64,000 nucleotides of DNA from Streptomyces venezuelae (lineage in GTDB: Bacteria > Actinomycetota > Actinomycetes > Streptomycetales > Streptomycetaceae). Below the pieces are notes generated by a model that saw only the letters and a program-made list of their open reading frames with translations, was not told the DNA's origin and made no database searches. A program made the translations under genes and the position numbers. Positions 30,003 through 42,576 of this stretch are shown piece by piece. Location of the stretch: NCBI RefSeq assembly GCF_008642295.1, contig NZ_CP029190.1, positions 3,951,501 to 4,015,500 on the forward strand. Reading direction: 5' to 3'. Within the stretch, counting starts at the first letter, position 1; each line of letters begins with the position of its first letter.

Positions 30003-30527
30003 CGCGCGCTCGCCCAGAACCCGGCCTGCCGGGTGATCATGCTGACCACCTTCGACCTCGACCAGTACGTCTATGCCGCGCTCGCGGCCGGCGCCGGCGG
30101 CTTCCTGCTCAAGGACGTCACCTCCGACCATCTGGCCGCAGCCATCCGCCTGGTGGGTACCGGAGACGCCCTGCTGGCCCCGTCCATCACCCGCCGCCTG
30201 GTGGAGCGCTACGCCGGATCGGACCCGGGGGCCGCAGCCGCACCCGGATCCGTACTCGGACCGGGGTCCGCCGCCCCGAGGCCGCGCGCCGCCGCGTCCG
30301 CCCGGGTGCACCGGGACCTGGCCGGTCTGACCCCCCGTGAACACGAGGTCCTGACGCTGATGGGCCGCGGTCTGTCCAATGCCGAGCTGGCCCGGGCCCT
30401 GACCCTCAGCGAGGCCACGGTGAAGACCCACGTGGCCCGCATCTTCGCCAAACTGAACCTCCGCGAGCGGGCCCAGGCGGTGGTGCTGGCCTACGAGACG
30501 GGTCTGGTCTCCCCCGGAGACGGGGAC
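30003..30527 (+). pseudogene. 5'-truncated NarL-type response regulator
   Basis: Homology begins abruptly at about 30003-30009 (LAQNPACRVIMLTTFDLDQY) in the middle of a receiver domain. The acidic pair and phospho-Asp (about 70 residues) are missing, while the Lys switch (LLKDVTSDH) and a full LuxR HTH (LTPREHEVLTLMGRGLSN, TVKTHVARIFAKLNLRERAQ) remain. A GTG at 30033 could start a short DNA-binding protein. No stop appears near the natural end (GLVSPGDGD); the frame stays open to 31109 over the opposite gene. It is probably non-functional, or a constitutive DNA-binding remnant. Confidence 0.72.
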
Positions 30528-31051
30528 TCATCCGTCTCCCGCAGGCCGACCCGGCCGGCGAGCTGGGCGATCGCGGTCCCCCCGCACAGCAGCAGACCAC
30601 GCTCCAGGGAACCGCGGGCATCGCGGTCGAACCGGCGCCAGAGAGCCGGATTGCGCACCATCACGTTCGGGTCCACCTCCACATGGTGGCCGTCGTCGTC
30701 GCACACGATCATCCGCTGGGCGACACCGTCCACCCACCGTACGGAGATCAGCCGGTCGGTCCGGACGGTGCGCCGGGTGAACAGCCCGCGCGAGCTCAGC
30801 CGGCCGGGCGCCGCCGAGACCCGCGGCGGCAGTAGCACCACGAACAGCAGGAAGGCCAGACCGGTCCAGGCGAGGCCGCGGACCACGGTCAGCCGCCCCA
30901 ACCCGGCGTCGACGACCAGGAGCAGGGCGAGCAAGAGCGCCGCCACCCCGATCGCGGTCCGCCGCTCGCCCCGCCAGTGGGCGTCGTACACGACGGGTTC
31001 GGGAGGTTCGTCCGCCTCGTCCGGACCCGGAACTTCGCAGCCTCGTTCCAT
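30491..31051 (-). CDS. Two-helix membrane protein with PH-like C-terminal domain
   Basis: The 186 residues have an acidic N-terminus (DEADEPPEPVVYD), two adjacent transmembrane helices (about 33-80), then a beta-rich cytoplasmic domain with LISVRWVDGVAQRMIVCDDD and HHVEVDPNVMVRNPALWRRF, which looks like a bacterial PH (bPH) fold. The function is unknown. Its end overlaps the tail of the truncated response regulator on the other strand. It is divergent from the KimA-like K+ transporter. Confidence 0.75.
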   Translation of the reverse strand: MERGCEVPGPDEADEPPEPVVYDAHWRGERRTAIGVAALLLALLLVVDAGLGRLTVVRGLAWTGLAFLLFVVLLPPRVSAAPGRLSSRGLFTRRTVRTDRLISVRWVDGVAQRMIVCDDDGHHVEVDPNVMVRNPALWRRFDRDARGSLERGLLLCGGTAIAQLAGRVGLRETDESPSPGETRPVS

Positions 31052-31136
31052 GGATATGGACGCTAGAAGCTCCCAGCGGACCGGTCCGGTGATCCTTACG
31101 GCTCGTTGATGCGTTCCTGACGACTCCCGGATGCCG

Positions 31137-31200
31137 CGTCAAAGACCCGTCACGACCAGGCGGTTCCGCGTCAAGAAAGCGCGTGGAACGGCCGTAGGAC
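31137..31200 (+). promoter_or_regulatory. Predicted KdpE-type operator and promoter of the KimA-like gene
   Basis: Four direct half-sites start at 31137 (CGTCAAAGACC), 31148 (CGTCACGACC), 31169 (CGTCAAGAAAG) and 31180 (CGCGTGGAACG): steps of 11, 21 and 11 bp. A TAGGAC -10-like box lies 15 bp after the start of the last half-site (31195-31200). Sequence, spacing and -10 distance all match the kdp promoter at 34546. Direct repeats with an 11-bp period are typical of OmpR/PhoB-family regulators such as KdpE. Confidence 0.6.
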
Positions 31201-31251
31201 GCAATCCCCGGAGCACCCTGGGCGGACCTGCCACGAAAGGGAACACCGGAG

Positions 31252-33105
31252 ATGTCCGTCCTGACGACTGAGCCTGCGGCTGAGAACCCCACCGCCGAGG
31301 AACCCCCCGATACCGGAGCGCGCCACAAGCTGACCGCCGTCACCGGTCTGGCCGCCCTGTCGCTGGACGCCATGGCATCGGTCGCCTACGGACCCGAGGC
31401 CATCGTGCTGGTCCTGGCCGCGGCAGGCGCGCACGGGCTGGGCTTCACGCTCCCCGTCACCTTTGCGATCGCCGCCCTGCTGGCCGTGCTGGTGGCCTCG
31501 TACCGGCAGGTCATCGCGGCCTTCCCGGACGGCGGCGGCAGCTACGCGGTCGCCAAGGCGCACCTCGGGCGGCGCACCAGCCTGGTCGCCGCCGCCTCCC
31601 TGGTCCTGGACTACGTCCTCAACGTGGCGGTCGCCGTCACCGCCGGTGTCGCCGCGCTGACCTCGGCCTTCCCGGAGCTGCACGGCGAGCGGCTGTGGAT
31701 ATGCCTCGCCGTCCTGGTGCTGATCACCGCCGTCAACCTGCGCGGCATCGTCGACTCGGCGAAGGCGTTCATCGTTCCCACCGTCGTCTTCATCGCCTCG
31801 ATCCTGGTGCTGATCGGCGTCGGACTGTTCCGGGACGCCCCGGTCTCGGTCGAGGCGGCGGCCGGCCACGCCTCCGTCCTCGCCGACAACGCCACCACCG
31901 TCGGTGCCCTGCTCCTGCTCAAGGCCTTCGCATCCGGCTGCTCCGCCCTGACCGGCGTCGAGGCGATCGCCAACGCCGTCCCGTCCTTCCGGTCCCCCGC
32001 CACCCGCCGCGCCCAGCGCGCAGAGGTGGCCCTGGGTGCCGTGCTCGGCGTGATGCTCATCGGCCTGGCGGTGCTGATCTCCCGCTTCGGCCTGCAGCCG
32101 GTCGAGGGCGTCACCGTCCTCGCGCAGCTCGCCGACGCCTCGCTCGGCCACGGACTCGGCTTCTACGTCGTCCAGTTCGCCACGATGGTGCTGCTGGCGC
32201 TGTCCGCCAACACCTCCTTCGGCGGTCTTCCCGTGCTGCTGAAGCTGCTGGCCCGCGACAACTTCCTGCCGCACGTCTTCGGCCTCAAGGCCGACCGCCA
32301 GGTCCACCGCCACGGGGTGCTCGCCCTCGCCGCCGTCTCCGCCGCGCTGCTGCTCTTCTCCGGAGGCGACACAAACACGCTCGTTCCGCTCTTCGCCATC
32401 GGCGTGTTCCTCGGCTTCACCATCGCCCAGACCGGCATGGTCCTGCACTGGCTGCAGGAGCGCGGCCCCCGCTGGGCCGGCAAGACGGCGCTCAACGGCC
32501 TCGGCGCGCTGCTCACCGGCGTCAGCGCCATCGTCGTCACCGCGACCAAATTCCACGACGGCGCCTGGCTGATCGTCGTCGCCCTTCCGCTGCTGGTCGC
32601 CGCGTTCGAGGCGGTACACCGGGCGTACGGGCGGATCGGCGTCCGGCTCGGCATCGGCCGCATCCCCGAACCCCCGCACCGGGACCGCTCGCTGGTCATC
32701 GTCCCGGTCTCCTCCCTCACCCGGCTCACCAGCGAGGCCCTGACGGCGGCCGTGTCGCTGGGCGACGAGGTGCGCGCGGTGACCGTGGTCCACTCCGACC
32801 CCGAGGACCGGGCGCAGACCGAGGCGCTGGCCCGGGACTGGGCGCTGTGGAACCCGGGTGTGGAGCTGGTCCGGCTGCCGTCCGAGCGGCGCAGTGTCGG
32901 CCGCCCGGTGGCCGCGTACGTACAGAAGCTGGCCCAGACCGAGCCCGGCACCCGGGTCACCGTGCTCATTCCGGAAGCGGAACCGGCCCGCCTGTGGCAG
33001 CGGATCCTTCAGAACCAGCGCGGGGCCGTCGTGGCCCACGCCGTCCGGCGCGACACGGACGCGGTGATCTGCCGGCTCCGTTTCCGGCTGTCCGCTGCGG
33101 ACTAG
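31252..33105 (+). CDS. KimA-like APC/KUP-family potassium importer
   Basis: The 617 residues comprise twelve membrane helices in residues 25-440, then a cytoplasmic domain of about 150 residues (LVIVPVSSLTRLTSEALTAA...) of the kind that binds cyclic di-AMP in Bacillus KimA. The N-terminal motif LSLDAMASVAYGPEAIVLVL and the helix-2/3 motif SYRQVIAAFPDGGGSYAVAK closely resemble KimA, a proton-coupled K+ importer, and less so amino-acid permeases. ATG 31252 follows CCGGAG at 3-4 nt. The kdp-like operator upstream and the kdp operon 3 kb away support a K+ role. Assignment over a general APC permease is an inference. Confidence 0.78.
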   Translation: MSVLTTEPAAENPTAEEPPDTGARHKLTAVTGLAALSLDAMASVAYGPEAIVLVLAAAGAHGLGFTLPVTFAIAALLAVLVASYRQVIAAFPDGGGSYAVAKAHLGRRTSLVAAASLVLDYVLNVAVAVTAGVAALTSAFPELHGERLWICLAVLVLITAVNLRGIVDSAKAFIVPTVVFIASILVLIGVGLFRDAPVSVEAAAGHASVLADNATTVGALLLLKAFASGCSALTGVEAIANAVPSFRSPATRRAQRAEVALGAVLGVMLIGLAVLISRFGLQPVEGVTVLAQLADASLGHGLGFYVVQFATMVLLALSANTSFGGLPVLLKLLARDNFLPHVFGLKADRQVHRHGVLALAAVSAALLLFSGGDTNTLVPLFAIGVFLGFTIAQTGMVLHWLQERGPRWAGKTALNGLGALLTGVSAIVVTATKFHDGAWLIVVALPLLVAAFEAVHRAYGRIGVRLGIGRIPEPPHRDRSLVIVPVSSLTRLTSEALTAAVSLGDEVRAVTVVHSDPEDRAQTEALARDWALWNPGVELVRLPSERRSVGRPVAAYVQKLAQTEPGTRVTVLIPEAEPARLWQRILQNQRGAVVAHAVRRDTDAVICRLRFRLSAAD

Positions 33106-33123
33106 CCGAGATCGCCCGGCCGC

Positions 33124-34035
33124 TCACGCGGGGATCCTGGAACCGGAGACCCCGCGGAGGGCCGGGCGGCCCGTGACATGGTGCACGTACTCGCGGACGA
33201 GCCGGAATCCGGCGGTCCAGGCGAGCAGCCGGCTCGCCCGGTTGTCCCGCGAGCAGCACCAGCTGGCAGTCCGGCCGCGTGCGGCGATGTCACCGGTCAG
33301 GCCGGCTACGCAGGCCAGGGCGAGGTGCCGGCGCCGGTGGTCGGGGTGGGTGAGTACGGCGACGTCGTCGTACGCGCTCCCGCGGAAGCGGGTGCAGGCC
33401 AGGGCCGCGATGCGGCCCTCGGCGAAGGCGGCCCAGGCGCAGCCGGTGGCGGCGAGCCGCTCCGGACCGCCCCAGCTGCCGAGGATCCAGGACCCGTCGA
33501 CCCCCGTCCCCGCCCGTGAGCCGGACGCCGCCCCCGTCCCCGTCGCTGCGCCGGACGCCGCCCCCGTGCCGGCCGCCGCCCCTGCGCCGGACGCCGCCCC
33601 CGTGCCGGCCGCTGCGCCCGTGCCGGTGAAGGCGGCGAGCGCCGCGGTGTCCGCCGCCGTGAGCCGCCGTACGGTCACCCCGCGCGGCACCCGGTGCGAG
33701 GCGGCCGGCTGCTGGTGGACGTAGACCATCCGCTCCCACGGGGTCACCCGGTCGAACGCGGACCACAGGGCCCCGCCGAACCGGGACGGCGCCTCGACAT
33801 AGCTCAGCGCGAAGGGGGCCAAGGCCCCCGGAGCCAGCGCCCCCGGATCGCCCCGCAGCAGGACCTGGTCCCCGCAGGACACCGCGAGGACCCGGGGACC
33901 CTCGGCCCGGTCGGCCCACCAGCGCCCGGTGCCGGTCTCCAGTACGTGCTCGACCAGCGCGCCCGGGCCGGCCGCAGCCGTGGGGAACCGGGCTGCAAGG
34001 GTGGGCAGCCGGTCGTGGGAAAGGATTTCGATCAT
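33124..34035 (-). CDS. GNAT-family N-acetyltransferase with internal Gly-Thr-Ala repeat
   Basis: The 303 residues contain an N-terminal domain (1-130) of the kind seen in double-GNAT-like actinobacterial proteins, a low-complexity repeat (about 137-178) and a C-terminal GNAT core: AAFAEGRIAALACTRF, VAVLTHPDHRRRHLALAC (acetyl-CoA loop), CSRDNRASRLLAWTAGFRLV. It transfers acetyl from acetyl-CoA to an unknown amine. ATG 34035 (or GTG 34047) sits in a small hairpin that includes the ribosome site. It is tail to tail with the KimA-like gene. Confidence 0.82.
   Translation of the reverse strand: MIEILSHDRLPTLAARFPTAAAGPGALVEHVLETGTGRWWADRAEGPRVLAVSCGDQVLLRGDPGALAPGALAPFALSYVEAPSRFGGALWSAFDRVTPWERMVYVHQQPAASHRVPRGVTVRRLTAADTAALAAFTGTGAAAGTGAASGAGAAAGTGAASGAATGTGAASGSRAGTGVDGSWILGSWGGPERLAATGCAWAAFAEGRIAALACTRFRGSAYDDVAVLTHPDHRRRHLALACVAGLTGDIAARGRTASWCCSRDNRASRLLAWTAGFRLVREYVHHVTGRPALRGVSGSRIPA
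33502..33627. repeat. Coding tandem repeat (GTGAAx hexapeptides, 18/36-bp units)
   Basis: Residues 137-178 of the acetyltransferase are about six hexapeptides (GTGAAA, GTGAAS, GAGAAA, GTGAAS, GTGAAS). At DNA level an 18-bp unit is nested in a near-perfect 36-bp unit. It is likely to vary in length between strains by slippage. Confidence 0.65.
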
Positions 34036-34037
34036 GC

Positions 34038-34050
34038 GGGGTGACACCCC
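34038..34050 (-). promoter_or_regulatory. Hairpin enclosing the acetyltransferase ribosome site
   Basis: On the minus strand GGGGT-GTC-ACCCC lies 2 nt before ATG 34035, and its left arm is the only G-rich ribosome site. Folding would hide it. Confidence 0.4.
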
Positions 34051-34060
34051 CTGAAGAGGC

Positions 34061-34299
34061 GTCGGCGGGGCGGTCCCGGACGGGGGACCGCCCCGCCGAC
34101 GACGAGGACGAATGGCCCCGTGCACGTCCCGACCGCGGGGTCGGGACGTGCACGGGGGAGGAACGGCCGCCGTACGGGCAGGCGGCGGCCGTGGGCACGG
34201 GGCGGGCCCGGACGGGGGCGCGCCGTGGCACACGGCGGGTGCGGCCGGTAGGCGCTACACCGCCGGTGCGGAAGCAGCGGGCGCGTGCGGAACCGGCGG
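34061..34299. repeat. Array of five consecutive hairpins
   Basis: H1, 34061-34100: 17-bp perfect stem (arm GTCGGCGGGGCGGTCCC), 6-nt loop. H2, 34116-34157: 19-bp perfect stem (arm CCCCGTGCACGTCCCGACC), 4-nt loop. H3, 34163-34192: 10-bp stem. H4, 34221-34237: CGCCGTG-GCA-CACGGCG. H5, 34260-34299: 8-bp arms CCGCCGGT/ACCGGCGG. They fill the first 260 bp of the 634-bp gap between the divergent acetyltransferase and kdp. No convergent gene explains them as terminators. Confidence 0.75.
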
Positions 34300-34545
34300 C
34301 ACCGTATGAGGGGGCCGGTCGTCATGGCGCAGACCGCTGTTCACGCCCGCCATACAACCGTCCGGGGCGCCCCTGCTCAAGGAAGTCGGCGGGCAATTGA
34401 CACCCCCCTGACAACCCTCTGATGCCGCCCGCCGGCCCGGCCGGGCCAGGCCCGCTCACCGGCCCGCCGGGACACCCGCACGAGAACCCCCACAGCCGCG
34501 CCGGAGGTGGCTGATTCTCGCCGGATCACAACCGAGGCACGGCGG
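34300..34545. other. Gene-free stretch between hairpin array and kdp operator
   Basis: I see no reading frame with native codon bias. A TTGACA at 34397-34402 lacks a matching -10. On the minus strand TACGGT near 34306 could be a -10 for the acetyltransferase. Otherwise nothing was recognised. Confidence 0.4.
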
Positions 34546-34609
34546 CGTAAGAGACCCGTCAAAGTCGAGCGCCCGGCCGTATGGGCCCCGTCAAGGACCC
34601 CCTTACCTG
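34546..34609 (+). promoter_or_regulatory. Predicted KdpE operator and kdp promoter
   Basis: Half-sites start at 34546 (CGTAAGAGACC), 34557 (CGTCAAAGTCG), 34578 (CGTATGGGCCC) and 34589 (CGTCAAGGACC): steps 11, 21, 11 bp. A -10-like TACCTG begins at 34604, 15 bp after the last half-site start. This is the same geometry as upstream of the KimA-like gene. The sites cover the -35 region, as expected for an activator of the OmpR family. Confidence 0.62.
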
Positions 34610-34669
34610 ACGGAATCCGCGCTTTCCTCTAGCTGTCCCAATACCTCTCTACTTCTTCGGGAGCTCACG

Positions 34670-34753
34670 ATGGCCGACCTGGCCTTCGTCGCCATCACGA
34701 TCGCGGTCTTCGCGCTGGTGGCACTCGTCGCCAAGGGGGTGACCAAGCTGTGA
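34670..34753 (+). CDS. 27-residue membrane peptide at the head of the kdp operon
   Basis: ATG 34670 with GGGAG 6 nt upstream encodes MADLAFVAITIAVFALVALV followed by AKGVTKL: a single transmembrane helix with a basic C-terminal end. Its stop overlaps the kdpF GTG (GTGA, 34750-34753), so it is the first coupled gene of the operon. It is distinct from KdpF, which follows. A small Kdp accessory peptide is the obvious guess; no function is known to me. Confidence 0.7.
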   Translation: MADLAFVAITIAVFALVALVAKGVTKL

Positions 34754-34839
34754 CTGTCGAGAACATCGTCGGCCTGGTGGTCGCCGTCTCCCTGCTGGGC
34801 TATCTCGTCCTCGCCCTCGTGTACCCGGAGAGGTTCTGA
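34750..34839 (+). CDS. kdpF: K+-transporting ATPase small subunit KdpF
   Basis: The 29 residues (VTVENIVGLVVAVSLLGYLV then LALVYPERF) form one transmembrane helix ending in the KdpF signature PERF. KdpF stabilises the KdpABC complex in the membrane. GTG 34750 overlaps the upstream peptide stop, and kdpA follows after 6 nt. Confidence 0.92.
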   Translation: MTVENIVGLVVAVSLLGYLVLALVYPERF

Positions 34840-34845
34840 GCCCCG

Positions 34846-36510
34846 ATGAGTCCTGTTCTTTCCGGTGTGCTCCAGCTCCTCGCCCTCATGGTGGTGCTGG
34901 CACTGGTCTACCGCCCGCTGGGCGACTACATGGCCAGGGTCTACTCCTCGGAGAAGCACTACGCTCCCGAGAAGTGGGTCTACAAGGCCATCGGCGCCAA
35001 CCCGACCGCTGAAATGCGCTGGCCCGCCTACCTGCGCGGTGTCCTGGCCTTCTCCGCGGTGAGCGTCCTCTTCCTCTACGGCCTCCAGCGCCTGCAGGGC
35101 TCGCTGCCCGGCTCGCTGGGCTTTGCGTCCATCGACCCCGACCAGGCCTTCAACACGGCCGCGTCCTTCGTCGCCAACACCAACTGGCAGTCGTACTACG
35201 GCGAGCAGGCCATGGGCCACGTCGTGCAGACCGGCGGCCTGGCGGTGCAGAACTTCGTCTCGGCGGCGGTCGGCATGGCCGTGGCCGTGGCCCTCGTCCG
35301 GGGCTTCGCCCGTTCCCGTACCGGTGAGCTGGGCAACTTCTGGGCCGACCTGGTCCGCGGTGTGGTCCGCATCCTGCTGCCCATCTCGGTGGTCGGCGCG
35401 ATCATCCTGGTCGCCTGCGGTGCCATCCAGAACTTCGCCGGCATCCACGAGGTCGGCCAGTTCATGGGCGGTACGCAGCAGTGGAACGGCGGCGCGGTGG
35501 CCTCGCAGGAGGTCATCAAGGAGCTGGGCACCAACGGTGGCGGTTACTTCAACGCCAACTCCGCCCACCCCTTCGAGAACCCCAACCCGTTCTCGAACCT
35601 GTTCGAGATCTTCCTGATCCTGGTCATCCCGTTCTCGCTGACCCGGACCTTCGGCAAGATGGTCGGCAGCGTGAAGCAGGGCTACGCGATCCTCGCGACC
35701 ATGGCCGTCATCTGGGTCGGCTTCGTCGCGCTGATGATGTGGACCGAGTTCGCGGGCAAGGGCCCGGCCTTCGAGGTCGCGGGCGGGGCGATGGAGGGCA
35801 AGGAGACCCGCTTCGGGATCGGCGCGTCGGCGATCTTCTCGGTCTCCACCACGCTGACCTCGACCGGTGCGGTGAACTCCTTCCACTCCTCGTACACCGG
35901 TTTCGGCGGCGGTATCCAGCTGCTGGGCATGCAGCTGGGCGAGATCGCGCCCGGCGGTGTCGGCTCCGGCCTCTACGGCATGCTGATCATGGCGATCATC
36001 GCGGTGTTCATCGCCGGCCTGATGGTCGGCCGTACGCCCGAATACCTGGGCAAGAAGATCGGCACCCGCGAGATCAAGTTCGCGGCCTGCTACATCCTGA
36101 TCACCCCGGCGCTGGTGCTCGGCTTCACGGCCGCCGCCATGGCGCTGGACACCCCGGCGAACTCGATGACCAACAGCGGGGCGCACGGCTTCTCCGAGAT
36201 CCTCTACGCCTACACCTCCGGAGCCAACAACAACGGTTCCGCCTTCGCGGGCCTGAACGCCGACACCCAGTGGTTCAACTCGACCATCGGCATCGCCATG
36301 CTGCTGGGCCGCTTCCTGCCCATGGTGTTCGTCCTGGCGCTGGCCGGCTCGCTGGCCGAGCAGAAGCCCGTCCCCGAGACGGCGGGCACGCTGCGCACCG
36401 ACAAGCCCCTCTACACCGGGCTGCTGGTCGGAACGATCATGATCATCACCGGTCTGACCTACTTCCCGGCGCTGGCGCTGGGTCCGCTTGCCGAAGGGCT
36501 GGCGTCATGA
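34846..36510 (+). CDS. kdpA: K+-transporting ATPase, channel subunit KdpA
   Basis: The 554 residues form a polytopic membrane protein of the K+ channel superfamily with four pore-loop repeats. Filter-like sequences include [32 protein letters not shown] and [18 protein letters not shown]. It selects and conducts K+ to the KdpB pump. The length is normal (about 555). Its stop overlaps the kdpB start in ATGA (36507-36510). Confidence 0.97.
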
Positions 36511-38636
36511 CCATCGACGTAAAGAAGCAGGACGCCATGTCCACAGCCACCCCCACCCGTGCTCCCCACTCCGACGTTCCCACCGGCCACAAGCCGGAAC
36601 AGGGGCGCGTCGGCGGCGGCCTGTTCGACCCGAAGCAGCTGGTCAAGTCCTTCCCGGACGCGGTCCGCAAGCTCGACCCGCGCGTGATGATCAAGTCGCC
36701 GGTCATGTTCGTGGTCCTCATCGGCTCGGTGGTCACCACGGTGCTGGCGCTGAAGGACCCGGGCGACTGGTTCGGCTGGGCCATCACCGCCTGGCTGTGG
36801 CTGACCACGATCTTCGCCAACCTCGCGGAGGCGGTGGCCGAGGGCCGCGGCAAGGCGCAGGCGGACACCCTGCGTAAGGCCAAGACCGACACGGTCGCCC
36901 GCCGCCTGGTCGGCGGGGACGAGGAGCGGGTGCCGGGCACCGATCTGAAGATCGGCGACCTGGTGGTCTGCGAGGCCGGCGACATCATCCCCGGCGACGG
37001 TGACGTCGTCGAGGGCGTGGCCTCGGTGGACGAGTCGGCGATCACCGGTGAGTCCGCCCCGGTCATCCGCGAGTCGGGCGGCGACCGCTCGGCCGTGACC
37101 GGCGGCACCAAGGTCCTCTCCGACCGTATCGTCGTCAAGATCACCACCAAGCCGGGCGAGACCTTCATCGACCGGATGATCAGCCTGGTCGAGGGCGCCG
37201 CCCGGCAGAAGACCCCGAACGAGATCGCCCTCAACATCCTGCTGGCGTCCCTCACCATCGTCTTCCTGCTGGCCGTCGTCACCCTCCAGCCCTTCGCCAT
37301 CTACGCCGGCGCCGAGCAGTCGATGATCGTGCTGACCGCACTGCTGGTCTGCCTGATCCCGACCACCATCGGTGCACTGCTCTCCGCGATCGGCATCGCC
37401 GGTATGGACCGCCTGGTCCAGCGCAACGTCCTGGCCATGTCCGGCCGGGCCGTCGAGGCCGCCGGCGACGTCTCCACCCTGCTGCTCGACAAGACCGGCA
37501 CCATCACCCTCGGCAACCGCCAGGCCGCCGAGTTCGTCCCGGTCAAGGGCACCACCGAGGCCCAGGTCGCGGACGCGGCCCAGCTGTCCTCGCTGGCCGA
37601 CGAGACCCCCGAGGGCCGCTCCATCGTCGTCCTGGCGAAGGAGAAGTACGGACTGCGCGAGCGCCACCAGGGCGAGCTCGCCCACGCCAGCTGGATCGCC
37701 TTCACCGCCCAGACCCGTATGTCGGGCGTGGACGTGGACGGCAAGAAGATCCGCAAGGGCGCGGCCGGCTCGGTCATCGCCTGGGTCACCGAGCAGGGCG
37801 GCCAGGTGTCCGAGGACGCCGACGCCCTCGCGAGCCGGATCTCCGAGGCCGGCGGCACTCCGCTGCTGGTAGCGGTGGAGGACGAGGACGGTGCCCGTGT
37901 CCTGGGCGTCATCCACCTCAAGGACGTCGTCAAGGAAGGCATGCGCGAGCGGTTCGACGAGCTGCGCCGGATGGGCATCAAGACGGTCATGATCACGGGT
38001 GACAACCCGCTGACCGCGCGCGCCATCGCCGAGGAGGCGGGAGTCGACGACTTCCTCGCCGAGGCCACCCCCGAGGACAAGATGGCCCTCATCAAGCGGG
38101 AGCAGGCGGGCGGCAAGCTGGTTGCGATGACCGGTGACGGCACCAACGACGCCCCGGCGCTTGCGCAGGCCGACGTCGGCGTGGCGATGAACACGGGCAC
38201 CTCGGCCGCCAAGGAGGCCGGGAACATGGTGGACCTGGACTCCAACCCCACCAAGCTCATCGAGATCGTGGAGATCGGCAAACAGCTCCTGATCACCCGC
38301 GGCGCCCTGACCACCTTCTCCATCGCCAACGACGTCGCGAAGTACTTCGCGATCATCCCGGCCATGTTCGCGGTGGTCTACCCGGGCCTGGACAAGCTCA
38401 ACATCATGGGCCTGGCCTCCCCGGAGTCGGCGATCCTCTCCGCGGTCATCTTCAACGCGCTGATCATCATCGCGCTGGTGCCGCTGGCGCTGAAGGGCGT
38501 GCAGTACCGGCCGACCAGCGCGGACAAGATGCTCCGCCGCAACCTGGGCCTCTACGGTCTCGGCGGCCTGATCGCCCCGTTCATCGGCATCAAGCTCATC
38601 GACCTGGTCATCTCCCTCATCCCCGGGCTCGCCTGA
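36507..38636 (+). CDS. kdpB: K+-transporting ATPase, P-type ATPase subunit KdpB
   Basis: The 709 residues have P-type ATPase landmarks: ITGESAPV (actuator), phosphorylated Asp328 in [12 protein letters not shown], the nucleotide domain ([10 protein letters not shown]) and the hinge [18 protein letters not shown]. It hydrolyses ATP to drive K+ uptake through KdpA. The first 30 residues are variable; ATG 36537 (MSTATPTR) is an alternative start. It is coupled to kdpA by overlap. Confidence 0.97.
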
Positions 38637-38657
38637 ATTAGGAACGTGCTGACTCCC

Positions 38658-39332
38658 ATGAACAACTCAGTAGGCAACACAGCGCGGCTGCTCGGCGCGG
38701 GCCTGCGGGCCCTGCTCGTCCTGACCCTGGTCTGCGGCGTGCTCTACCCGCTGGCCGTGACCGGAATCGCCCAGGCCCTGTTCAACGACAAGGCCAACGG
38801 CTCCGAGATCAAGGACAAGAGCGGGCAGGTCGTCGGCTCCTCCCTGATCGGCCAGACGTACAACCTCCCCAAGCAGAACCCTGACGACCCGGAGGAGGCG
38901 GCCAAGCCGGACCTCAAGTGGTTCCAGCCGCGCCCCTCCAACGGCCTCGGCTCCAACAGCGTCAACACCCAGTACTCGCTGATCCTCTCCGGCGCCACCA
39001 ACCGGGCCGGTGACAACGAGGACCTCATCAAGTGGGTCACCGATGCCAAGGCCGCGGTCGTCGCGGACAACTCCACCGCCACCTACAAGGTCAAGCCGGA
39101 GGACGTGCCCGCCGACGCCGTCACCTCCTCCGGTTCCGGCCTCGACCCGCACATCTCGCCCGAGTACGCGAAGCTCCAGGTCAACCGGGTCGCCGAGCAG
39201 AACAACCTCGACGTCAAGCAGGTCGAGAAGCTGGTCGCCGACCACACCTCCGGCCGCGTCCTCGGCTTCATGGGCGAGCCCCGCGTGAACGTCCTGGAGC
39301 TCAACGTGGCCCTGAAGGCGCTCGCGCGGTGA
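38658..39332 (+). CDS. kdpC: K+-transporting ATPase, KdpC subunit
   Basis: The 224 residues have one N-terminal transmembrane helix (LRALLVLTLVCGVLYPLAVT) and an extracytoplasmic domain with the KdpC motifs SSLIGQ, WFQPRPS, SGSGLDPHISPEYA and VNVLELN. It assembles KdpFABC and raises its K+/ATP affinity. ATG 38658 is preferred over GTG 38646, whose ribosome site would be 1 nt away. Its stop overlaps the kdpE start by 4 nt (GTGA). Confidence 0.96.
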   Translation: MNNSVGNTARLLGAGLRALLVLTLVCGVLYPLAVTGIAQALFNDKANGSEIKDKSGQVVGSSLIGQTYNLPKQNPDDPEEAAKPDLKWFQPRPSNGLGSNSVNTQYSLILSGATNRAGDNEDLIKWVTDAKAAVVADNSTATYKVKPEDVPADAVTSSGSGLDPHISPEYAKLQVNRVAEQNNLDVKQVEKLVADHTSGRVLGFMGEPRVNVLELNVALKALAR

Positions 39333-40015
39333 CCAGAGTGCTGGTGGTCGACGACGAGCCGCAACTGGTGAGGGCCCTGGAGATCAACCTGAAGGCGCGC
39401 CACTACGAAGTGGATTCCGCGCCGGACGGCACCAGGGCCCTGGCGACCGCCGCCGCCCGTCGGCCGGACGTCGTCCTGCTGGACCTCGGCCTGCCCGACA
39501 TGGACGGGATCGAGGTCATCCGACGGCTGCGCGGCTGGTCGCGGGTGCCGATCCTGGTGGTCTCGGCCCGGCACAGCAGCGACGAGAAGGTCGAGGCGCT
39601 CGACGCGGGCGCCGACGACTACATCACCAAGCCGTTCAGCATGGACGAACTCCTTGCCCGGCTGCGGGCCTCCTCCCGGCGGACCCTGGAGTCCAAGGAA
39701 GCGGTCGGTGAGGACGTCATCGTGGAAACCGATGAGTTCACCATCGACCTGCTCGCCAAGAAGGCCAAGCGGCAGGGCAAGGAGGTCCGGCTCACGCCGA
39801 CCGAATGGCATCTGCTGGAGGTGCTGATCCGCAACCGCGGCCGGCTTGTCACCCAGCGCGGGCTCCTCCAGGAGGTCTGGGGCTCCAGCTACGGCACCCA
39901 GACCAACTACCTGCGGGTCTACATGGCCCAGCTCCGGCGCAAACTCGAAGCGGACCCCGCCCACCCCCGGTACCTGATCACCACCCCGGGCATGGGCTAC
40001 CGGTTCGACGCATAG
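39329..40015 (+). CDS. kdpE: OmpR-family response regulator KdpE
   Basis: The 228 residues contain a receiver domain with DD at 8-9, phospho-Asp52 in VVLLDLGLPDMDG and Lys in YITKPFSMDELLARLR. The C-terminal winged helix has VRLTPTEWHLLEVLIRNRG, TNYLRVYMAQLRRKLE and TPGMGYRF. It activates kdp under K+ limitation. It is the best candidate to bind the direct-repeat operators at 34546 and 31137. The order kdpE then kdpD is reversed relative to Escherichia coli. Confidence 0.95.
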   Translation: MTRVLVVDDEPQLVRALEINLKARHYEVDSAPDGTRALATAAARRPDVVLLDLGLPDMDGIEVIRRLRGWSRVPILVVSARHSSDEKVEALDAGADDYITKPFSMDELLARLRASSRRTLESKEAVGEDVIVETDEFTIDLLAKKAKRQGKEVRLTPTEWHLLEVLIRNRGRLVTQRGLLQEVWGSSYGTQTNYLRVYMAQLRRKLEADPAHPRYLITTPGMGYRFDA

Positions 40016-40029
40016 GAACGGCTTTATCG

Positions 40030-42576
40030 ATGGGACGCGGCAAGCTCCGGATCTACCTCGGCGCGGCGCCCGGTGTGGGCAAGACGTACGCGATGCTCTC
40101 CGAGGCGCACCGCCGGGTGGAACGGGGCTCCGATGTCGTCGCCGGCTTCGTCGAGCACCACAACCGCCCGCGCACCGTCGTGATGCTGCACGGTCTGGAA
40201 CAGGTCCCGCGCCGCGATCTCGACTACCGCGGCACCGTGTTCGCCGAGATGGACGTGGATGCGGTGCTGCGGCGGCGGCCGGCGGTGGCGCTGGTGGACG
40301 AGCTGGCCCACACCAACATCCCCGGGTCCCGCAATGCCAAGCGCTGGCAGGACGTGGAGGAGCTCCTCCAGGCCGGTATCGATGTGGTGTCCACGGTCAA
40401 CATCCAGCACCTGGAATCCCTCGGCGACGTGGTCGAGTCGATAACGGGGGTGCGTCAGCGCGAGACGGTGCCGGACGAGGTGGTGCGGCGGGCGGACCAG
40501 ATCGAGCTGGTCGACATGTCCCCGCAGGCCCTGCGCCGCCGGATGGCCCACGGCAACATCTACAAGCCCGACCGGGTCGACGCCGCCCTGTCCAACTACT
40601 TCCGGCCCGGCAACCTCACCGCGCTGCGCGAGCTGGCCCTGCTGTGGACCGCCGACCGGGTCGACGAGTACCTGCGCGAGTACCGCGGCGAGCACGACAT
40701 CCGCACCACCTGGCAGGCCCGCGAACGCATCGTGGTCGGCCTGACCGGCGGCCCCGAGGGCCGCACCCTGATCCGGCGGGCCGCCCGGCTGGCCGAGAAG
40801 GGCGCCGGCGGCGAACTCCTGGCCGTCTACATCTCCCGCAGCGACGGCCTCTCCTCCGCCTCCCCCAAGGAACTCGCCGTCCAGCGCACCCTGGTCGAAG
40901 ACCTCGGCGGCAGCTTCCACCACGTCATCGGCGACGACGTCCCCAGCGCCCTCCTGGAGTTCGCCCGCGGAGTCAACGCCACCCAGATCGTGCTGGGTTC
41001 CAGCCGCCGCAAGAGCTGGCAGTACGTTCTCGGGCCCGGCGTCGGTGCCACCGTCGCCCGCGAATCCGGGTCCGACCTCGACGTCCACATCGTCACCCAC
41101 GACGAGGCGGCCAAGGGCCGCGGGCTGCCGGTGGCCCGCGGAGCTCGCCTGGGCCGCTCCCGGATCCTGGCCGGCTGGCTGGTCGGGGTCCTCGGACCCG
41201 CCGTCCTCACCCTCCTCCTGACCAGCCTGGAGCCGGGGCCGGGGCTCGCCAACGACGTCCTGCTCTTCCTCGGCCTCACCGTCGCCGCCGCCCTGCTCGG
41301 CGGGCTGCGCCCGGCGCTCGCCGGCGCGGCCGTCGGCTCCTTGCTCCTGAACTACTACTTCACCCCACCCCTCCACACCCTCACCATCTCCGACCCCGAG
41401 AACATCGTCGCGATCTCGGTGTTCTTCGCGGTGGCGGTGTCGGTGGCCTCGGTGGTGGACCTGGCCGCCCGCCGCACCCACCAGGCGGCCCGGCTGCGCG
41501 CCGAGTCCGAGATCCTCACCCTGCTCGCCGGCAGCCTGCTGCGCGGCGAAACCACCCTCGACGCACTGCTGGAACGCGTTCGGGAGACCTTCGCCATGGA
41601 ATCCGTGGCCCTGCTCGAGCGCGGCAGCGAGGTCGAACCGTGGATCTCCTCCGGCAGCGTCGGCCCCGACCCGGCCGAACGCCCCGAGGACGCGGACGTG
41701 GACATGCCCATCGGCGACCATATGGCGTTGGCCCTGACCGGCCGGGTCCTGCCGGCCGAGGACCGCCGCGTCCTCGGCGCCTTCGCCGCCCAGGCCATGG
41801 CGCTGCTCGACCGGCAGCGACTGGTCGGCGAGGCCCAGGAGGCCCGCAGTCTCGCCGAGGGCAACAAGATCCGTACGGCCCTGCTGGCCGCGGTCAGCCA
41901 CGACCTGCGCACCCCGCTGGCCGGTATCAAGGCCTCCGTCAGCTCGCTCCGCTCCGATGACGTCGACTGGTCCGAAGAGGACCGCGCCGAACTGCTGGCC
42001 GGCATCGAAGCGGGCGCGGACCGGCTGGGGAACCTGGTGGACAACCTGCTCGACATGTCCCGCCTCCAGACGGGCACGGTCACCCCGGTGCTCCGCGAGA
42101 TCGACCTGGACGAGGTCGTCCCGATGGCCCTGGGCGGCGTACCGGAAGGCAGCGTGGACCTGGACATCCCGGAGGACCTGCCCATGGTCACGGTGGACCC
42201 CGGCCTGCTGGAGCGGACGGTGGCCAACATCGTGGAGAACGCGGTCAAGTACAGCCCGGAGGACACCCCCGTCCTGGTCGCGGCCAGCGCCCTGCGGGAC
42301 CGGGTCGAGCTCCGTGTGGTCGACCGCGGGCCCGGGGTCCCGGACGAGGCGAAGGAACGTATCTTCGCGCCGTTCCAGCGCCACGGCGACGCCCCCCGGG
42401 GCGCCGGAGTCGGCCTCGGCCTGGCCGTGGCCCGGGGTTTCGCCGAAGCCATCGGCGCCACCCTCACCGCCGAGGACACCCCGGGCGGCGGCCTCACCAT
42501 GGTCCTCACCCTCACCCCGGTCCCGGCCGCGGACCGCCCACCGGAGGTCAGTGACCTGCGGAGAGCTCGCCGCTGA
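40030..42576 (+). CDS. kdpD: Sensor histidine kinase KdpD
   Basis: In order along the 848 residues: KdpD N-domain with Walker A GAAPGVGKT (11-19) and VALVDELAHTN; a universal-stress-like domain (about 230-365); four transmembrane helices (about 375-480); a GAF-like region; HisKA with His624 in VSHDLRTPLAG; and HATPase with GVGLGLAVARGFAEA. It senses K+/turgor and phosphorylates KdpE. ATG 40030 lies 14 nt after the kdpE stop. The end overlaps the SulP gene by 29 nt, tail to tail. Confidence 0.96.
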   Translation: MGRGKLRIYLGAAPGVGKTYAMLSEAHRRVERGSDVVAGFVEHHNRPRTVVMLHGLEQVPRRDLDYRGTVFAEMDVDAVLRRRPAVALVDELAHTNIPGSRNAKRWQDVEELLQAGIDVVSTVNIQHLESLGDVVESITGVRQRETVPDEVVRRADQIELVDMSPQALRRRMAHGNIYKPDRVDAALSNYFRPGNLTALRELALLWTADRVDEYLREYRGEHDIRTTWQARERIVVGLTGGPEGRTLIRRAARLAEKGAGGELLAVYISRSDGLSSASPKELAVQRTLVEDLGGSFHHVIGDDVPSALLEFARGVNATQIVLGSSRRKSWQYVLGPGVGATVARESGSDLDVHIVTHDEAAKGRGLPVARGARLGRSRILAGWLVGVLGPAVLTLLLTSLEPGPGLANDVLLFLGLTVAAALLGGLRPALAGAAVGSLLLNYYFTPPLHTLTISDPENIVAISVFFAVAVSVASVVDLAARRTHQAARLRAESEILTLLAGSLLRGETTLDALLERVRETFAMESVALLERGSEVEPWISSGSVGPDPAERPEDADVDMPIGDHMALALTGRVLPAEDRRVLGAFAAQAMALLDRQRLVGEAQEARSLAEGNKIRTALLAAVSHDLRTPLAGIKASVSSLRSDDVDWSEEDRAELLAGIEAGADRLGNLVDNLLDMSRLQTGTVTPVLREIDLDEVVPMALGGVPEGSVDLDIPEDLPMVTVDPGLLERTVANIVENAVKYSPEDTPVLVAASALRDRVELRVVDRGPGVPDEAKERIFAPFQRHGDAPRGAGVGLGLAVARGFAEAIGATLTAEDTPGGGLTMVLTLTPVPAADRPPEVSDLRRARR

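Follow-up and report, generated by a model that had tools for sequence, protein, structure and literature searches.

Candidate KdpE operators of one four-half-site design upstream of kimA and kdp in Streptomyces venezuelae

Among the closest described counterparts of the operators treated here is the KdpE site of the kdpF promoter in Mycobacterium smegmatis, where KdpE acts as an activator and, by shift assays, needs the sequence CCGTAAAGAAACCATCAAGGCC; its authors described this as a single A-rich motif of 22 base pairs (22 bp) that did not noticeably resemble known KdpE motifs (PMC5401905). In Escherichia coli the KdpE site consists of two 6-bp repeats with 5 bp between them (PMC3264566), and in Staphylococcus aureus KdpE controls genes beyond kdp (PMC5401905). 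The potassium importer KimA is known from Bacillus, where cyclic di-AMP (c-di-AMP) binds the protein and controls its expression (PMC10284832, PMC6994465). Here we analyse 64,000 nucleotides of Streptomyces venezuelae (contig NZ_CP029190.1, positions 3,951,501 to 4,015,500, forward strand; the window), which carry a kimA gene and, behind it on the same strand, a kdp operon with kdpE and kdpD. A sequence-only reading had noted four repeated half-sites in front of each transport system and had taken KdpE to activate both.

Operators of one design upstream of kimA and kdp

The half-sites lie exactly where that reading had put them, starting at 31137, 31148, 31169 and 31180 and at 34546, 34557, 34578 and 34589, with steps of 11, 21 and 11 bp in both operators:

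31137..31190, + strand: kimA operator, half-sites 31137-31147, 31148-31158, 31169-31179 and 31180-31190, letters CGTCAAAGACC CGTCACGACCA - 10 bp - CGTCAAGAAAG CGCGTGGAACG (from the sequence, matrix scores and relatives)
34546..34599, + strand: kdp operator, half-sites 34546-34556, 34557-34567, 34578-34588 and 34589-34599, letters CGTAAGAGACC CGTCAAAGTCG - 10 bp - CGTATGGGCCC CGTCAAGGACC (from the sequence, a score of 43.7 on matrix A1 and the profile)

The design is two tandem pairs of 11-bp direct-repeat half-sites, the pairs standing 32 bp (about three helical turns) apart. We consider it likely that both elements are KdpE operators of this one design and that they serve a wider K+ regulon. 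The recurring core first proposed, CGTCAARGACC, did not survive as such: its ACC tail falls outside the conserved core, and the 11-mer was rejected as evidence, having 22 matches in the 7.5-Mb genome against 26 for its reversed control. Since a single 11-mer is uninformative, the DNA upstream of kdpA and kimA was read across 150 Streptomyces genomes.

A kdpA match is present in 129 of the 150 genomes. We used 111 of 149 kdpA rows, leaving out 12 directly behind kimA, G001, the second copies of G038 and G149, and the 23 lowest-ranked, and found an operator upstream of all 111 Streptomyces kdp operons examined. A small open reading frame (ORF) before kdpF served as anchor in 104 of these upstream regions. 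Without any model, CGTCAA is seen there in forward orientation in 96 regions and in reverse orientation in 1, and the commonest spacings between pairs of CGT[AC][AT][AG]G are 21, 11 and 32 bp. A 54-bp matrix with steps 11-21-11 fits all 104 anchored regions (lowest score 37.2, against a maximum of -1.7 in 2000 random 260-bp sequences); the 7 unanchored ones reach 42.2 to 63.6, and the window's own genome has a second kdp operon whose operator reaches 45.3. When the matrix is trained on one half of the regions, 52 of 52 in the held-out half outscore every one of 5000 random sequences. In the kdp matrix the conserved letters are confined to the half-sites, typically CGTATGG or CGTAAGG followed by CGTCAAG or CGTCAAC, and the bases behind each half-site and between the pairs are loose. 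Outside Streptomyces, where only the 21 kdpA rows fetched as loci were scored, a score of 20.6 is exceeded by 17 of 21 kdp upstream regions in the forward direction, compared with 2 of 21 in the reverse direction; the design is found upstream of kdp in ten actinomycete families besides that of Streptomyces.

Orthologues of kimA with at least 75% identity occur in 38 of the 150 genomes, all 38 also having kdpA; 41 of 43 rows were used, two partial matches being omitted. With a matrix made from the kdp operators of other genomes only, 39 of the 41 upstream regions exceed the random-sequence 99th percentile. The two that do not are L094, which scores 0.9, and L046, which has no match within 450 bp and one of 17.5 farther upstream; on the same matrix no operator is seen at any of 7 more remote KimA homologues, of which two come from the window's own genome. 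In a separate set of 80 named loci, 61 of the 62 kimA loci of at least 75% identity carry an operator above 20.6. The repeats are thus conserved in related species, whereas their absence there would have refuted the earlier reading, and its idea of an operator common to kimA and kdp is supported.

The scores above 20.6 refer to matrix A1, built from 54 sites (18 kdp, 24 kimA and 12 divergent, picked for diversity from 109, 38 and 15) with the window's genome excluded; its source genomes partly recur among the 80 named loci, so the counts for these loci are not fully independent. On the + strand of the whole window its two top positions are 34546 (43.7) and 31137 (31.3), the next reaching 10.9. 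The highest score in 15 Mb of order-3 Markov sequence was 20.6, but another 3 Mb contained a single position between 22 and 24; random maxima differ between runs, and therefore the cut of 20.6, used to call presence in the named loci and the other families, is not absolute. On the kdp-only matrix the window's kimA operator scores 11.4, where 3000 random 450-bp stretches have a 99th percentile of 2.3 and a maximum of 11.9. Expectation maximisation gave 46.0 bits on the forward strand and 36.8 on the reverse strand of the same sequences, against 7.9 in a Markov control; the reverse-strand value is the same conserved block read backwards and so is no null. The kimA operator starts 115 bp before its gene, as compared with 115-117 bp in the five best-matching relatives. 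Judged by its letters and scores, it appears real but weak; within the window the kdp operator appears strong, and those of kimA and of the divergent gene described below weaker.

KdpE as the probable regulator, and the promoters

The regulator of these operators is very probably KdpE, judging from sequence correspondence, because the M. smegmatis 22-bp KdpE site amounts to two half-sites in register, CGTAAAGAAAC followed by CATCAAGGCC. On the kdp matrix this 22-mer scores 22.3 at half-sites 3-4 and 21.7 at half-sites 1-2, with 0 of 1,999,981 random positions as good; on a mixed matrix it scores 23.0 (0 random positions as good) and 18.4 (1 random position as good). As in Streptomyces, the two half-sites are 11 bp apart and lie in the kdpF promoter region, where the published account saw a single motif; its main text uses the term 'direct repeat' 0 times, and KimA goes unmentioned in the excerpted passages (PMC5401905). 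The E. coli site has the same 11-bp step and differs in its AT-rich letters (TTTATA/TTTACA) and in having one half-site pair (PMC3264566). Together with operators that precede kdpD and kdpE copies, the match to the M. smegmatis site supports the earlier proposal of a KdpE-type regulator. The proposed partners are encoded behind the pump genes:

39329..40015, + strand: kdpE, OmpR-family response regulator, proposed to bind the operators (Pfam Response_reg and Trans_reg_C)
40030..42576, + strand: kdpD, sensor kinase, ATG start (Pfam KdpD, Usp, DUF4118, HisKA and HATPase)

E. coli KdpE is among the best PDB relatives of the window's KdpE (4kfc, E 4.7e-63). The recognition helix TNYLRVYMAQLRRKLE is present in 15 of 15 copies among those listed of 49 aligned, and it holds the two arginines needed by E. 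coli KdpE, R193 and R200 having counterparts in Streptomyces KdpE (PMC3264566). Besides the kdpE of the operon, the genome has three further copies with the DNA-contact residues.

Across 61 Streptomyces genomes, an operator profile gave hits in 51 of 52 genomes with kdpA and in 2 of 9 without it. The single kdpA genome missed (G050) is 82% complete and carries kdpA close to the end of a contig; the two hits in kdpA-less genomes are not borne out by the matrix. KdpE itself is found in 60 of 62 Streptomyces genomes, and hence the operators follow kdp rather than KdpE. No operator above 18 was found in eight kdpE neighbourhoods without adjacent kdp (L352 of the window's own genome, L353, L354 and L359-L363). 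In five of these neighbourhoods (in G002, G013, G021, G026 and G030) a gene resembling KimA at 36-38% identity stands about 5 kb or less from KdpE. Searches of open-licence literature turned up neither a description of this operator nor an account of kimA being controlled by KdpE.

Downstream of the half-sites, the TANNN(G/C) boxes pointed out earlier, TAGGAC (31195) and TACCTG (34604), do start 15 bp after the last half-site start, but they are not conserved in relatives and were rejected as -10 elements; conserved instead is a block at +23 to +31 after the operator. Its consensus is GTTTnCTC at +23 to +30 in 111 kdp upstream regions and nA(C/A)nCTG at +25 to +31 in 102 distinct kimA upstream regions, and the majority consensus of 30 divergent promoters is TAnnGT at +24 to +29 with ATG at +37 to +39. 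No conserved -35 element accompanies the -10-like box. The sequences suggest that the block is the -10 box and that transcription in the divergent promoters starts leaderless. The putative boxes in the window are:

31214..31219, + strand: -10-like box CACCCT of kimA, one base off the conserved register (consensus of 102 kimA upstream regions)
34623..34628, + strand: -10-like box TTTCCT of kdp (consensus of 111 kdp upstream regions)
31060..31065, - strand: -10-like box TAGCGT of the divergent gene (majority consensus of 30 divergent promoters)

Given the register in which TAnnGT precedes ATG, the operator would lie at about -36 to -89, with its half-site pairs about three helical turns apart, a common position for activators. 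This position and the M. smegmatis precedent point to activation by KdpE; KdpE binding and a response to K+ would be expected in Streptomyces as well. We propose that when K+ is scarce KdpD would phosphorylate KdpE, and that one KdpE dimer would bind each half-site pair, both on the same face of the DNA and together covering about -36 to -89, and would recruit RNA polymerase to a promoter without a -35 element of its own. The kdpFABC pump and the KimA symporter would be switched on in this way, and the divergent gene at 30491-31051, for a PH-like membrane protein, through overlapping half-sites on the other strand. The same operator would serve a wider K+ regulon in Streptomyces and its relatives, including extra KdpD/KdpE copies, which would amount to autoregulation.

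Further operators and the genes of the locus

The sequence-only reading had spoken of a small K+ regulon; this proved too narrow, as operators also precede the divergent gene, KdpD/KdpE copies and other genes. In the window's own genome, a whole-operator profile (R1, built without that genome) gave seven strong hits with 150 of 8936 first-look candidates scored, not the many genome hits that would have told against the earlier reading. The best is the window's kdp operator (E 4.4e-8); the second kdp operon and one of the kdpE copies have a hit each, and two hits form a divergent pair flanked on one side by a universal-stress-protein gene and on the other by a small gene that is followed by one for a pyridoxal-dependent decarboxylase. 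The last two lie beside short-chain dehydrogenase genes. In the 80 named loci, 229 operators score above 20, where about 1 is expected by chance. A gene was recognised behind 209 of them and not behind 20: kimA in 71 (69 loci), kdp in 45 (40), the divergent family in 30 (27), KdpD-like kinases in 22 (20), the remainder being rarer. Beyond these loci operators precede kdpD, kdpE, stress-protein genes and others, the names of downstream genes being read from translations save those checked with Pfam. With further genes behind it in relatives, the operator seems to mark a larger potassium-control network. S. aureus KdpE likewise controls genes beyond kdp; there they are virulence genes, whereas here they are genes of K+ transport and signalling with a common, predicted four-half-site operator (PMC5401905).

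Several of these loci deserve mention in their own right. The second kdp cluster of the genome (L211) has a kdpA at 6390045-6391706 that is 98% identical to that of the window, its own KdpE, a KdpD and a KdpB-like ATPase (by reading), and strong operators. A third cluster (L212, 6538001-6558000 of the same genome) combines a further copy of kdpE with what reads as a fragment of KdpD, a DUF4118 protein encoded separately, an orphan KdpB-like P-type ATPase, a universal stress protein and a pyridoxal-dependent decarboxylase; it holds five operators above 18. In L371, L373 and L386, from three Streptomyces genomes, an operator stands among genes that read like menaquinone-pathway genes, and the one in L371 lies immediately in front of a gene for a ubiE-type methyltransferase (Pfam-checked). 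Around the promoter box of the two operators beside the short-chain dehydrogenase genes, the bases resemble those behind operators in L215, L222 and L244, three named loci with a similar start, and a KdpD-like gene is recognised behind that of L215. A small RNA behind these two operators was considered and rejected, as the 150 nucleotides after each show no folding advantage over shuffled sequence (z 0.05 and -1.16); a 76-nucleotide stretch in L212 folds better than shuffles (z -3.61) and is terminator-like.

Many kimA loci have a second operator that is oriented oppositely, toward a gene often starting ATGG(G/A)AC. Its A1 score passes 20.6 in 15 of the 62 loci from close relatives and in 3 of the 18 distant loci. 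S. lucensis (L244) and S. spinoverrucosus (L238) are examples of Streptomyces with kdpF, kimA and the divergent gene together at one locus. In the window the features are:

31090..31122, - strand: divergent operator, half-sites CGTCAGGAACG at 31122-31112 and CATCAACGAGC at 31111-31101, with a further one, CGTAAGGATCA, at 31100-31090 (A1 score 21.4)
30491..31051, - strand: divergent gene, 186 amino acids, two predicted membrane helices and a PH-like domain (AlphaFold2)

This divergent operator is degenerate, its A1 score of 21.4 (31154-31101) being near the best random scores and so near chance by score alone; the half-sites on its upstream side are degenerate too and share bases with the operator of kimA. 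TAGCGT (31065-31060) ends 8 bp before the ATG of the gene, and from the sequence a leaderless transcript is possible. AlphaFold2 predicts a two-helix membrane protein with a PH-like domain (mean predicted local distance difference test score 89.8). A homologue was found in 57 of 111 loci searched, which partly include the same strains twice. Among 36 family members Pfam gave weak matches to bPH_6 in 4 and DUF350 in 4, and none for the window's own protein; Foldseek found nothing below E 0.001, the best match, EROS at E 0.024, being a hint only.

The gene served by the first operator is as follows:

31252..33105, + strand: kimA, KimA-type K+/H+ symporter, KUP family, 617 amino acids (phmmer, Pfam AA_permease_2, conserved residues)

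Against the PDB, its residues 23-596 align by phmmer to 20-588 of B. subtilis KimA (6s3k, E 1.6e-122), the cytosolic domain included. The KimA assignment stands on this homology; the operator, which had been offered as support for it, is a weak argument. D36, Y43 and E233 are essential for K+ uptake in B. subtilis (PMC6994465). Their counterparts D39, Y46 and E237 are kept in 78 of 78, 78 of 78 and 80 of 80 aligned orthologues, and the residues of D117 and T230 are likewise kept in the window's protein. T121, S125 and Y377, affinity residues whose alanine substitutions lower uptake without abolishing it (PMC6994465), are not kept and correspond to N124, A128 and F381; in the orthologues the T121 position is N in 79 of 79, and the Y377 position F in 80 of 80, whereas at the S125 position 56 of 79 have A and the other 23 have S. 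The c-di-AMP contact R337, which raises c-di-AMP affinity and is not essential for inhibition in B. subtilis (PMC10284832), is replaced by His341 and is His in 80 of 80 aligned orthologues. The change at the K+-site and c-di-AMP-contact positions represented by N124, F381 and H341 is thus clade-wide. From these residues K+ transport by the window's KimA is likely, and its affinity and c-di-AMP control may differ. As in Bacillus, a transporter of the KimA family would be under K+-related control in this Streptomyces; in Bacillus c-di-AMP binds KimA and controls its expression, whereas here a two-component operator is predicted and R337 is His (PMC10284832, PMC6994465).

The rest of the kdp operon is laid out as follows:

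34670..34753, + strand: 27-residue ORF MADLAFVAITIAVFALVALVAKGVTKL before kdpF (read from the sequence)
34750..34839, + strand: kdpF, 29 amino acids, GTG start (from the sequence)
34846..36510, + strand: kdpA (ORF)
36507..38636, + strand: kdpB, start placed by the presumed overlap with the kdpA stop (reading frame)
38646..39332, + strand: kdpC (ORF)

The 27-residue ORF is hydrophobic and runs over into the beginning of kdpF. The motif at its own start, [AG]TGG[CA][CT]GA, occurs in 104 of 111 Streptomyces kdp upstream regions, and it is perhaps an unannotated Kdp subunit or a leader peptide. A GNAT acetyltransferase gene (33124-34035) lies on the opposite strand between kimA and kdp, and an ORF similar to it adjoins the second kdp cluster (L211:16739-17512, by reading of the translation).

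Alternative explanations and the meaning of the operators

Several results weigh against KdpE operators of one design serving a wider regulon. Two strong operators of the window's own genome, at 6383495 (L211:5495-5548, score 44.8) and 6544896 (L212:6896-6949, score 40.0), point away from the short-chain dehydrogenase genes beside them, and no gene was found facing either. KimA loci of 70% identity or less have an operator in only 8 of 18 cases, and 4 of the 21 kdp upstream regions outside Streptomyces lack one. The window's kimA operator is among the weaker ones, with its low kdp-only score and a poor match in half-site 4; at 31.3 on A1, it is nonetheless unlisted in the own-genome profile scan down to E 10 (for the 150 candidates scored), and a direct profile scan of the window shows only fragments of it, of 9.2 and 5.8 bits. 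KdpE is kept in kdp-less genomes without an operator nearby, so that its presence alone is no predictor of operators. For M. smegmatis the published account names a single 22-bp site and proposes a promoter of the SigF type, unlike the Streptomyces box (PMC5401905), and that site, allowing at most 3 mismatches, occurs in only 2 of 121 genomes of a related family; one of the two occurrences forms the second pair within a complete operator of four half-sites (37.9), the other the first pair (30.1). Finally, according to a 2023 review, KdpDE has not been analysed in Streptomyces, and in unpublished work cited there S. venezuelae did not need it to develop or to grow on 0.5 M NaCl or KCl.

Tandem repeats with a period near 11 bp are bound by many regulators of the OmpR family, and the boxes of the Streptomyces regulators PhoP, MtrA and AfsQ1 are also direct repeats about 11 bp apart. 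The operators might accordingly belong to another member of this family, KdpE being a mere neighbour, and the tracking of operators with kdpA when KdpE is present in 60 of 62 genomes could be taken in the same sense. We regard this as quite unlikely in view of the two half-sites in register within the M. smegmatis KdpE site, the recurrence of the design upstream of kdp in ten further actinomycete families and the operators preceding kdpD/kdpE copies. Unlikely too is that only the kdp operator works, the one at kimA having decayed in this strain while it stays functional in relatives. Half-sites 2 and 4 of the kimA operator are weak, it was missed in profile scans and scores low on the kdp-only matrix, and its promoter box is one base out of register; yet its A1 score of 31.3 exceeds the random maxima of 20.6 (15 Mb) and 22-24 (3 Mb), its distance of 115 bp from kimA is that of the five best relatives, and the kimA frame is intact.

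In B. subtilis, c-di-AMP acts on kimA through a riboswitch. With kimA expression there controlled by c-di-AMP (Gundlach 2019, in excerpt) and, in an excerpted report, a c-di-AMP riboswitch controlling kdp in B. thuringiensis, kimA could be under such a riboswitch here and the repeats incidental. This is very improbable: Rfam at gathering thresholds found no riboswitch in the 64 kb, in particular none of the ydaO/yuaA type at the kimA leader, and only a tRNA, and the leader from the presumed start would be about 26 nucleotides, too short for one. Chance repeats in GC-rich DNA, for which the equal abundance of the single 11-mer and its reversed control might speak, are scarcely conceivable given a layout conserved across species and families and contradicted as chance by the random-sequence nulls.

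We therefore retain KdpE operators of one design as the preferred explanation. Tentatively, and with rather less confidence, actinomycete KdpE may be the master of a broad K+ regulon with one four-half-site operator, in which a clade of KimA has moved from c-di-AMP to two-component control; the latter shift is suggested because no riboswitch was found in the window and the R337 position is His in 80 of 80 orthologues. Such a regulon would cover two K+ importers, extra KdpD/KdpE, the two-helix PH-like membrane protein, universal stress proteins and a decarboxylase operon. The defined operator directly provides a candidate list of target genes and a probe for footprinting, and it allows the published M. 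smegmatis site to be reread as two direct-repeat half-sites. It predicts that the Kdp pump, the KimA symporter and a small membrane protein would be switched on together when K+ is scarce, and would link a transporter known from the c-di-AMP biology of Bacillus to a two-component system.

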